A model generated the notes under the pieces. It worked only from the letters and a program-made list of their open reading frames with translations, made no database searches and was not told the DNA's origin. The position numbers were made by a program, and so were the translations under genes. A DNA stretch of 64,000 nt from Methanobacteriales archaeon HGW-Methanobacteriales-1. Its GTDB lineage: Archaea; Methanobacteriota; Methanobacteria; Methanobacteriales; Methanobacteriaceae. Location of the stretch: assembly GCA_002839705.1 (NCBI GenBank), contig PGYO01000003.1, positions 62,001 through 126,000 on the forward strand, read 5' to 3'. Shown piece after piece: positions 48,894-51,520 of the stretch. The stretch's first letter is position 1. Every line of letters begins with the position of its first letter.

Positions 48894-49082
48894 TTAACTA
48901 ACTTTTAATTTTAATTTGGTTTTAAAGAATTTCATTAATTTTGATGGATAATTAATTTCAGGTAAGTTTTCATAACCACAATTTGGACATTTTATTTTTC
49001 TACAATTGCATGATGGGCATCCAGCACATGTTTCAGATTTTATTTTTTCATCAAAAGAATGGCTGCAAATTTTACATCTCAT
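48894..49082 (-). CDS. Small zinc-ribbon protein at the end of the feo-like locus
   Basis: 62 residues with seven or more Cys in pairs: MRCKICSHSF, then TCAGCPSCNCRKIKCPNCGYENLPE, and a basic tail. This predicts a zinc ribbon or Cys cluster. GGTGGTGAT stands six bases before the ATG. It is the last gene of the iron-box-controlled run. Small Cys-rich proteins often accompany feoB in prokaryotes, so a role with the lost ferrous iron transporter is plausible but not shown. Confidence 0.75.
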   Translation of the reverse strand: MRCKICSHSFDEKIKSETCAGCPSCNCRKIKCPNCGYENLPEINYPSKLMKFFKTKLKLKVS

Positions 49083-49257: not shown

Positions 49258-49359
49258 TCAATCATCATCTAATTCTCTAATTTCAGAGTGATTGTCATCT
49301 TGGTCTAAATCAGCATTTTTTAAGTTTTTAATTCCAATTATACCACTTTTAGTAGTCAT
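49258..49359 (-). CDS. 33-residue ORF with a perfect ribosome binding site
   Basis: Very small protein beginning M-T-T-K-S-G-I-I-G-I and ending in an acidic tail (DQDDNHSEIRELDDD). The case for translation is AAGGAGGTG (complement of 49366-49374), the best ribosome site in the window, six bases before the ATG. It lies 46 bp after the FeoB remnant and about 175 bp before the zinc-ribbon gene, all on the minus strand. I recognise no family. There is no Cys and no membrane helix. Confidence 0.55.
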   Translation of the reverse strand: MTTKSGIIGIKNLKNADLDQDDNHSEIRELDDD

Positions 49360-49405: not shown

Positions 49406-49543
49406 TTAAGCGAATCCTAAAAAAGATCCTCCTTGATATATAATAAATGAAACAATCCAGGCCGCCGCTGTAGTATATAAAACCGTGAAAATGGGCCATT
49501 TCCAAGAGTTAGTTTCTCTTTTTATGGTGGCAACCGTTGCAAA
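49406..49543 (-). pseudogene. feoB: C-terminal remnant of FeoB
   Basis: An open frame of 45 codons ending in TAA at 49406 encodes [10 protein letters not shown], then [10 protein letters not shown], then two hydrophobic turns with [11 protein letters not shown] and [10 protein letters not shown]. This is the last membrane segment of a FeoB ferrous iron transporter (the ATI.RE...WKW...Y...AW pattern). The GTPase domain and all other membrane segments (roughly 600 residues in a normal FeoB) are absent. It has no start codon and is out of frame with the FeoA fragment that runs into it, so it is the product of a deletion. Confidence 0.85.
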
Positions 49544-49656
49544 ACTCTTTTAACAAATCCCATTCCCATTAGATGTCTTTTCAGGTCACTCTTACCCTTA
49601 AAAGACACTATATTTCCAGATTGTCCTACTTTAAGTTCGTTTAATTTTTTTATCAT
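49522..49656 (-). pseudogene. feoA: Truncated FeoA fused out of frame to FeoB remnant
   Basis: ATG 49656 opens a 44-codon frame. Residues 1-37 (KLNELKVGQSGNIVSFKGK, then [13 protein letters not shown]) match the first half of FeoA, the small SH3-like partner of FeoB; normal FeoA has about 75 residues. After GFVKR the sequence switches to FeoB coding DNA in another frame and stops after VLQRLPP. The junction lies near 49541-49550. The fragment lacks the second half of the SH3 fold and is unlikely to function. Confidence 0.85.
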
Positions 49657-49706
49657 TTTGTACACGCATTTATTTTCTTATGAAGTTCAGTTTTTCTCGT
49701 TAAAAT

Positions 49707-49988
49707 TCAGACAAGTCCTAAATCGCAAATTATAGTTTGAATAGCTACATTCATGTCTTCTGGTCGAATAATATTTTTTCCATTTCTGGAGGCTTCTCTG
49801 GAAGCTTCCTCTGCTACCATATGGCCCAAATCATCGAGAAATTCTTGAAGATTTTCAACAGCCGTCCGATTAGTTTTGGCCACACGCTCCCTATTTAAAA
49901 TACTTAATTCCATGTTAGCATGCTTTTTTACAATTTTTATAACAGGAGTGAATGGTATATCCATTTTTTTATAGTTTACTTCATTCAT
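49707..49988 (-). CDS. Variant histone-fold protein, first gene of the iron-box operon
   Basis: 93 residues with a histone fold: IPFTPVIKIVKKHA (helix 1, about 11-24), AVENLQEFLDDLGHMVAEEASREASRNG (helix 2, about 43-70) and the diagnostic IRPEDMNVAIQ (loop 2 and helix 3). Canonical archaeal histones have 65-70 residues; this one has an N-terminal extension of about ten residues and an insert of about nine in the helix 1-helix 2 loop (NMELSILNRERVAKTN region). GGTGGT precedes the ATG. It lies directly downstream of three iron-box palindromes and 50 bp upstream of the feoA remnant, so iron-dependent expression is inferred. Confidence 0.82.
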   Translation of the reverse strand: MNEVNYKKMDIPFTPVIKIVKKHANMELSILNRERVAKTNRTAVENLQEFLDDLGHMVAEEASREASRNGKNIIRPEDMNVAIQTIICDLGLV

Positions 49989-50021: not shown

Positions 50022-50037
50022 TTTAGGCTTGCCTAAA
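50022..50037. promoter_or_regulatory. Iron-box-like operator 1 (TTTAGGCTTGCCTAAA)
   Basis: TTTAGGC-TT-GCCTAAA has perfect 7-bp arms. It resembles DtxR/IdeR/MDR1-type boxes (TTAGG...CCTAA). It lies 28 bp downstream of a TATA box (50065-50074, minus) and so near the expected transcription start of the histone gene, where a bound repressor would block polymerase. Confidence 0.75.
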
Positions 50038-50064
50038 CTTTCTTTGATTTAAGTGGATTATCAT

Positions 50065-50074
50065 AATATATAAA
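50065..50074 (-). promoter_or_regulatory. TATA box 1 of the histone/feo promoter
   Basis: TTTATATATT on the minus strand, about 80 bases before the histone ATG. Operator 2 abuts it upstream, at the BRE position, and operator 1 lies 28 bp downstream. A transcription start is expected near 50040-50045. Confidence 0.65.
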
Positions 50075-50075
50075 G

Positions 50076-50091
50076 TTTAGGTTTGCCTAAA
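50076..50091. promoter_or_regulatory. Iron-box-like operator 2 (TTTAGGTTTGCCTAAA)
   Basis: Same palindrome as operator 1 with one arm mismatch (T for C), exactly 54 bp away. It borders TATA box 1 on the upstream side, where TFB would bind, and lies downstream of TATA box 2. Confidence 0.75.
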
Positions 50092-50118
50092 CTTTCTTTG
50101 ATTTAAGTGGATTATCAT

Positions 50119-50128
50119 AATATATAAA
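50119..50128 (-). promoter_or_regulatory. TATA box 2 of the histone/feo promoter
   Basis: Duplicate of TATA box 1, shifted by 54 bp; a second possible start would fall near 50095-50100, just before operator 2. Confidence 0.55.
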
Positions 50129-50129
50129 G

Positions 50130-50145
50130 TTTAGGTTTGCCTAAA
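50130..50145. promoter_or_regulatory. Iron-box-like operator 3 (TTTAGGTTTGCCTAAA)
   Basis: Identical to operator 2 and exactly 54 bp from it, abutting TATA box 2 upstream. Sequence beyond it is unrelated to the repeat unit. Confidence 0.75.
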
Positions 50146-50395: not shown

Positions 50396-51520
50396 GTGAA
50401 ATTTAACAATATAGTTTACGATTCACATATAACAGAAAACAAATTATTAATTGCCTCTAATGAACCTAAAAAAGAGGCCAAAGTGGTTGTTCTCCAACCA
50501 GTAGGTTATCCATTCATTTGTAATTTAGTAGAAACTCCTAAAATAGAAGTTTTTGATAAAGAACTCTTTGAGTTATATGCACAAGACCAGTGGGAAGGAT
50601 TTACTGCAAAAGAAGGTTCTTACCTTTTTGATCAGAAATTACTGCCAGATTATGCTTTTAAGGTTATTAAAGCACATCCTGACGAGTCAAAAATAACTCA
50701 AAATACATCTATACTTCTGGTTGATGTTTTAAAAGAGTGCGATGACATTCAGAAAATAGAAACTAAACTTAAAATAGATGACGTAGTAGGTCAAGAACAA
50801 GCCAAAACCAAATGTAAAATAATAATGAAGTACCTTAAGGATCCTGAAAAATTCAAAGAATGGGCCCCTAGGAATGTTCTATTTTTCGGAACACCCGGTA
50901 CTGGAAAGACTATGCTAGCCAAATCATTATCTAATGAGCTTAAAGTCCCATTATATCTTATAAAGGCCACTACGCTTATTGGAGATCATGTGGGTGATGG
51001 TGCCCGGCAAATACACGAATTATACGATATTGCTGCTAAAAACTCACCTTCAGTGATATTTATTGATGAAATTGATGCTGTAGGCCTGGATAGGAAATAC
51101 CAATCCTTGCGAGGAGATGTTTCAGAAGTAGTTAATGCACTTTTAACTGAAATGGACGGTATAAAGCAAAACTACGGCGTAGTTACCATAGGTGCCACCA
51201 ATAACCCATCAGTTTTGGATTATGCGATTAGGAGCCGATTTGAAGAGGAAATCGAATTTAAGCTTCCAGAAGAACCAGAGAGAAAGGAAATAATCAAAAA
51301 CAACATTGATTCCATGCCACTGGAAGTAAAGGTTTCTGTGGAAAAGCTGGCCCAGCTATCCAAAGGAATGTCTGGAAGAGATATTAAAGAAAAACTATTA
51401 AAAAATTCTCTTCACAAAGCAATATCTGATGATGAAGATGTAGTAGAAATGAAACACGTGGAATACGCCCTTAAGAATTACCAGACTGAAAAGAACGAAC
51501 CTAAGGGAATGTTTGCTTAA
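50396..51520 (+). CDS. AAA family ATPase (proteasome-regulatory-subunit-like)
   Basis: 374 residues. An N-terminal domain of about 130 residues is specific to methanogens; the single AAA module follows: [19 protein letters not shown], Walker A GTPGTGKT (about 166-173), Walker [10 protein letters not shown], second region of homology [20 protein letters not shown] (Arg finger) and the C-terminal lid. It resembles 26S/PAN ATPases but has one AAA domain and no coiled coil or C-terminal HbYX, so a proteasome link is not supported. The start is GTG 50396; the nearby ATG at 50391 is out of frame and hits a stop. Confidence 0.9.

Follow-up and report, generated by a model that had tools for sequence, protein, structure and literature searches.

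Within the 64,000-nucleotide window that we analysed from a Methanobacteriales genome, a 93-residue variant histone is encoded as the first gene behind operators of the iron-repressor type that head a feo iron transport operon. This anatomy and the placement under an iron box are well supported, while the response to iron, the binding of DNA and the effect on chromatin are predictions made from sequence. We consider the chances evenly balanced that the protein is a lineage-restricted, non-polymerising histone under the control of an iron repressor, a DNA-binding dimer co-expressed with Feo as the first cistron of the operon. Such an arrangement suggests that cells may change their DNA-binding histone when iron runs short. 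Environmental switching of histone variants is an open question in the field, and a variant whose promoter brings it under an identifiable metal repressor provides a concrete, testable case leading from iron through histone composition to transcription. The locus in the source genome (G000), compared with those of genomes G004, G135 and G136, contains the following features.

48894..49082, minus strand: 62-residue Cys-rich, zinc-ribbon-like reading frame at the cassette end, conserved in G004 (reading frame list, Pfam, alignment).
49258..49359, minus strand: 33-residue reading frame after feoB with a strong AAGGAGGTG ribosome site, conserved after feoB in G004 (alignment).
49406..49543, minus strand: feoB remnant, about the last 45 codons, fused directly to feoA by deletion (translation matches the FeoB C-terminus of G004).
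49549..49653, minus strand: feoA remnant, first 35 codons, within a 47-residue reading frame at 49522-49665 (PF04023, E=3.2e-6; segment with 86% DNA identity to G004).
49707..49988, minus strand: variant histone-fold protein, 93 residues, first gene after the boxes (PF00808, AF2, Foldseek; orthologues in G004, G135 and G136).
50022..50037, no strand: box 1, TTTAGGCTTGCCTAAA, between the predicted transcription start and the start codon (exact pattern match; family-wide motif).
50047..50062, minus strand: GATAATCCACTTAAAT, 16 bp between TATA and box 1, unchanged in all four genomes (alignment).
50067..50074, minus strand: putative TATA-like element TTTATATA of the histone/feo promoter (read from the sequence, aligned in four genomes).
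50076..50091, no strand: box 2, directly upstream of the TATA element (exact pattern match).
50101..50128, minus strand: second copy of the conserved element and TATA, from the 54-bp duplication (sequence, four-genome alignment).
50130..50145, no strand: box 3, upstream end of the 54-bp tandem duplication, in this genome only (pattern match, four-genome alignment).
50396..51520, plus strand: divergent AAA ATPase (PRS2-type), a conserved neighbour outside the operon (reading frame list, Pfam, locus comparison).

The initial annotation of this DNA had set three operators before the histone gene, and exact TTTAGGNNNNCCTAAA palindromes are indeed found upstream of it at 50022, 50076 and 50130, 54 bp apart, with the histone as the first gene after them. 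In the reading direction of the histone gene, box 2 directly adjoins the TATA-like element and box 1 would lie just past the expected start site. The 54-bp tandem duplication (50022-50145), a unit of box plus TATA in copies 98% identical, is unique to the source genome; in its relatives there is one pair of boxes, with a spacing of 55 bp. A reversed-pattern control rejects chance as the source of the boxes: the source genome has five exact copies of TTTAGGNNNNCCTAAA against one for the control, and 134 of 139 Methanobacteriaceae genomes contain the box, in as many as 19 copies each compared with 0-6 for the reversed pattern. The box often lies upstream of feoA or feoB, across genera, and a comparison of coordinates in seven further genomes gives box-to-feoA gaps of 55-257 bp; none was found within about 1.5 kb of the canonical histones at any of the 23 loci checked. 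Box pairs spaced 54-55 bp apart occur in several genera (L024, L026, L028, L029, L041, L044, L098), and the spacing itself seems conserved.

Sensors of the DtxR family work through TTAGG/CCTAA half-sites that lie over promoters (PMC10317159), and in a methanogen FeoB and DtxR show a joint response to the source of iron (PMC8516115). The second feo operon of the source genome consists of a box pair, a DtxR gene and then feoB; its pair, one exact copy with a one-mismatch partner again 54 bp away, is the only other clearly placed copy in that genome, and the dtxR product combines DtxR Pfam domains with a FeoA domain. The operator common to feo and dtxR promoters, by which a DtxR regulon is recognised, is thus also that of the variant histone. 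An Fe(II)-loaded repressor of the DtxR family would bind the boxes on either side of the TATA element and start site, keeping the histone and feo off, and a drop in iron would lead to the histone being made together with FeoA and FeoB.

Orthologues of the variant histone are restricted to four of the 139 family genomes, in two genera: the source genome, its congeners G135 and G136, and G004 of another genus, with G004 and G136 being metagenome-assembled Methanobacteriaceae. No further orthologue was found in a 152-genome phylum set, and the remaining matches, weak ones with E about 1e-5 to 1e-2, resemble ordinary histones. In every carrier the first gene to follow the boxes is the histone, and behind it come feoA-feoB (G004), a different feoB (G135 and G136) or the scar of a feoA-feoB deletion (source genome), so that the histone stays with its promoter while the transporter genes vary. 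In G135 a DtxR-type gene follows feoB; its product (L019:4125-4853, minus strand) has metal-binding and FeoA domains, with the Pfam match for the N-terminal DNA-binding domain absent. Co-transcription is predicted from gene order in G004, G135 and G136, where histone and feo genes share one strand and one promoter with a short gap to feoA or feoB. No terminator-like site was found between histone and feoA, which are separated by 41 bp in the source genome and 59 bp in G004. The proposal that the histone is under iron-box control therefore stands on four genomes, three downstream arrangements and the matching box pair before dtxR-feoB. The histone-feo order is kept in this four-genome clade, but conservation across the Methanobacteriales, which the same annotation had asked about, is rejected by the count of four in 139; at the feo loci of the seven other genomes, the gaps of 55-257 bp are too short to hold a histone gene. 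With so few carriers, the family as a whole must be able to take up iron without this histone. A histone linked with feo in this sense was not found in the literature searched.

The predicted feo remnants after the histone proved to be a FeoA Pfam match followed by a FeoB C-terminus, and alignment to the intact locus of G004 reveals a single internal deletion of about 2.04 kb in the source genome, so that feoA breaks off near codon 35 and runs straight into the final 45 or so codons of feoB. In our preferred reading this was a later event that left the boxed histone behind. Retention after the loss of feoAB had been taken as a sign of independent use, which is a weak argument: the loss could have happened recently, another feo operon with boxes is still in place, and the parsimony branch to the source genome holds just two synonymous and two replacement changes in the histone, too few for selection after the deletion to be judged.

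Over longer branches, omega values of 0.11 between G000 and G004 (Fisher p=1.5e-7) and 0.09 between G004 and G136 (also significant by Fisher test) point to strong purifying selection on the histone; omega is 0.21 between G000 and its congeners, and 0.38 between G135 and G136, which is not significant and is indistinguishable from relaxed selection. The histone dS to G004 is 0.40 against 0.77-1.43 for flanking genes, and the whole cassette aligns to G004 at 84-86% identity, so the cassette has probably been exchanged between lineages. Exchange and patchy distribution would also suit a mobile-element histone captured behind the feo promoter and travelling with the cassette, now drifting or decaying, as the eroding G135 copy might be. 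The nearest outside relative of the variant (35% over 78 residues) is a 183-residue, provirus-encoded histone-domain protein in the source genome, and a viral contig, IMGVR_UViG_3300038334_000146, carries an identical protein; as a lead only, the feo histone may descend from a mobile-element histone. We nevertheless hold a mere passenger to be rather unlikely, given the purifying selection in the G000-G004 and G004-G136 comparisons and an insert region that is invariant. Viral origin of the exact variant gene is unsupported, with only the 183-residue cousin on a viral contig and no relatives of the variant itself in the viral contigs or phages searched. That cousin (L016:1192-1743, minus strand, equivalent to G000:C1:442133-442681; L116:4384-4935) has an N-terminal histone domain and a C-terminal domain of no known kind, and its viral contig also carries type I restriction-modification-like genes.

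The intact reading frame at 49707-49988 on the minus strand matches Pfam CBFD_NFYB_HMF (PF00808) above its cut-off (E=8.1e-6; 26.5 bits against 21.4) and falls below that of NCBIfam archaea_histone (23.4 against 50). An AF2 model from a 13-row alignment, which included canonical histones that help the model, reached pLDDT 89 and pTM 0.73 and has the order alpha1-loop-long alpha2-loop-alpha3, with helices at residues 13-30 (an alpha1 of 18 residues), 41-68 and 76-89 and low confidence for the first six residues. It was used in place of a weak run on four close, near-identical rows, which gave pLDDT 58 and the identical three-helix order. Foldseek against the PDB placed HMfB and HMfA on top (probability 1.0, TM(target) 0.77-0.89, with 0.88 for HMfB), and HPhA, NF-YB and CENP-A/H3 chains also matched at probability 1.0; the E-values were 5e-3 or weaker, as is normal at this protein length. 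The histone fold of the initial annotation is therefore upheld, and alignment to canonical histones confirms the N-terminal extension and loop insert that it described, about 8 and about 11 residues respectively, the latter at the alpha1/loop-1 junction.

The NF-YB matches bear on a second role for the same fold. Histone-fold pairs of the NF-Y type work at promoters, and the variant could be a local regulator, a histone-fold dimer at its own and other feo promoters (for example at GATAATCCACTTAAAT) that tunes feo transcription. Its position at the head of the operon, a 16-bp segment identical in all four genomes between the TATA element and box 1, and a long alpha1/loop 1 unlike that of packaging histones would fit, but GATAATCCACTTAAAT is absent from the second feo promoter and the other loci compared and could be a core promoter element, and we judge this role unlikely.

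Relative to the three canonical paralogues of its genome the variant is 24-28% identical (about 26%), and its charge pattern is reversed, residues 1-41 carrying +5 and the remainder -6, for a pI of 6.1 compared with 9.1-9.2. Alignment to HMfB, using the roles assigned to positions 10/19/53/54 and 46/49/59/62 in PMC7776873, shows basic residues retained (R10 to K18, R19 to K38, R52 to K71), as are P4 (P12) and D59 (D78), while two DNA contacts of loop 2 have gone (K53 to N72, T54 to I73) and tetramer positions changed (L46 to E65, H49 to R68, being R/K68 across orthologues, and L62 to V81). Measured by residues 46/49/59/62 and the loop-2 motif RxTxxxxD, the variant does not fit the pattern of a nucleosomal histone: its motif is KxIxxxxD and D59 (D78) alone is kept. 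Residues 21-66, including the insert, are almost invariant across all four orthologues, making the insert region among the most conserved parts, and in the G135 orthologue alpha1 is three residues shorter and the otherwise conserved loop-2 Asp is replaced (D78Y). As side observations, the genome's own canonical histones contain no Cys, and canonical-type histones of other genera (L064, L065) end in CKC, possible metal ligands.

From the residue mapping and charge pattern we infer a DNA-binding dimer without polymerisation. The basic alpha1/loop-1 side would be kept and extended, and the dimer-dimer surface changed (L46 to E65, H49 to R/K68), so that long hypernucleosomes would not form; alone or paired with canonical histones, the variant might relax or remodel chromatin locally when iron is limiting. 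Counting against this are the lost K53 and T54 contacts, the D78Y change and shortened alpha1 of the G135 copy, and the G135-G136 omega of 0.38. A C-terminal half that is acidic, a pI close to neutral and the loss of loop-2 contacts could instead indicate an accessory of the FeoB transporter, a DNA-binding-type fold with a protein-binding job in a role like that of bacterial FeoC, a likeness by analogy only. The histone always directly precedes feoA or feoB where feoB is intact, but it is also intact in the source genome without its feoB, and with a basic N-terminal half and K18/K38 kept at DNA-contact positions we find an accessory distinctly improbable. Very unlikely too is a dedicated iron-starvation histone: release of DtxR would turn on the non-polymerising variant, which would enter chromatin and reset the expression of iron-demanding genes genome-wide, possibly also sensing metal itself via invariant Cys88 and His residues. 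Were the local or passenger reading alone true, the gene would still be an operon-linked histone type not found described in the literature searched.

Compared with DtxR-family iron regulons (archaeal DtxR; IdeR boxes, PMC10317159), the locus is alike in having CCTAA/TTAGG half-sites over the feo promoter and start region, and in the identical boxes at the source genome's DtxR gene. It differs from IdeR-type regulons in its 16-bp box, paired 54-55 bp apart, where theirs is a 19-bp box of four repeats, and in having a histone in the unit. With canonical HMfA/HMfB and the genome's three paralogues, the variant shares the three-helix fold, P12 and D78, and the basic residues at HMfB positions 10, 19 and 52. 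It is longer at the N-terminus and alpha1/loop-1, has a pI of 6.1, lacks the RKT loop-2 motif, and has altered tetramer residues 46, 49 and 62. In archaea a histone gene usually forms a unit by itself (PMC11390915), as the canonical genes do here, whereas the variant is an operon gene with boxes.

The capstone variants of Methanobacteriales (Msp_0383, Msm_1260; PMC7776873) likewise have an altered dimer-dimer interface and a predicted polymer stop. They require an acidic or hydrophobic residue at position 49, where the variant has a basic one (R68 or K68), and on this ground capstone membership is rejected; the insert and the genomic place differ as well. The RdgC and IHF-related histones (PMC11390915) have a C-terminal coiled-coil helix or tail that the variant lacks, and with alpha3 ending at residue 89 of 93 in the AF2 model an RdgC or coiled-coil histone is rejected. 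The partners here are iron transport genes instead of RdgC-like or IHF-like ones, but the likeness is one of organization: in those families too the histone gene is tied to a multi-gene operon, and the RdgC histone is also the first gene.
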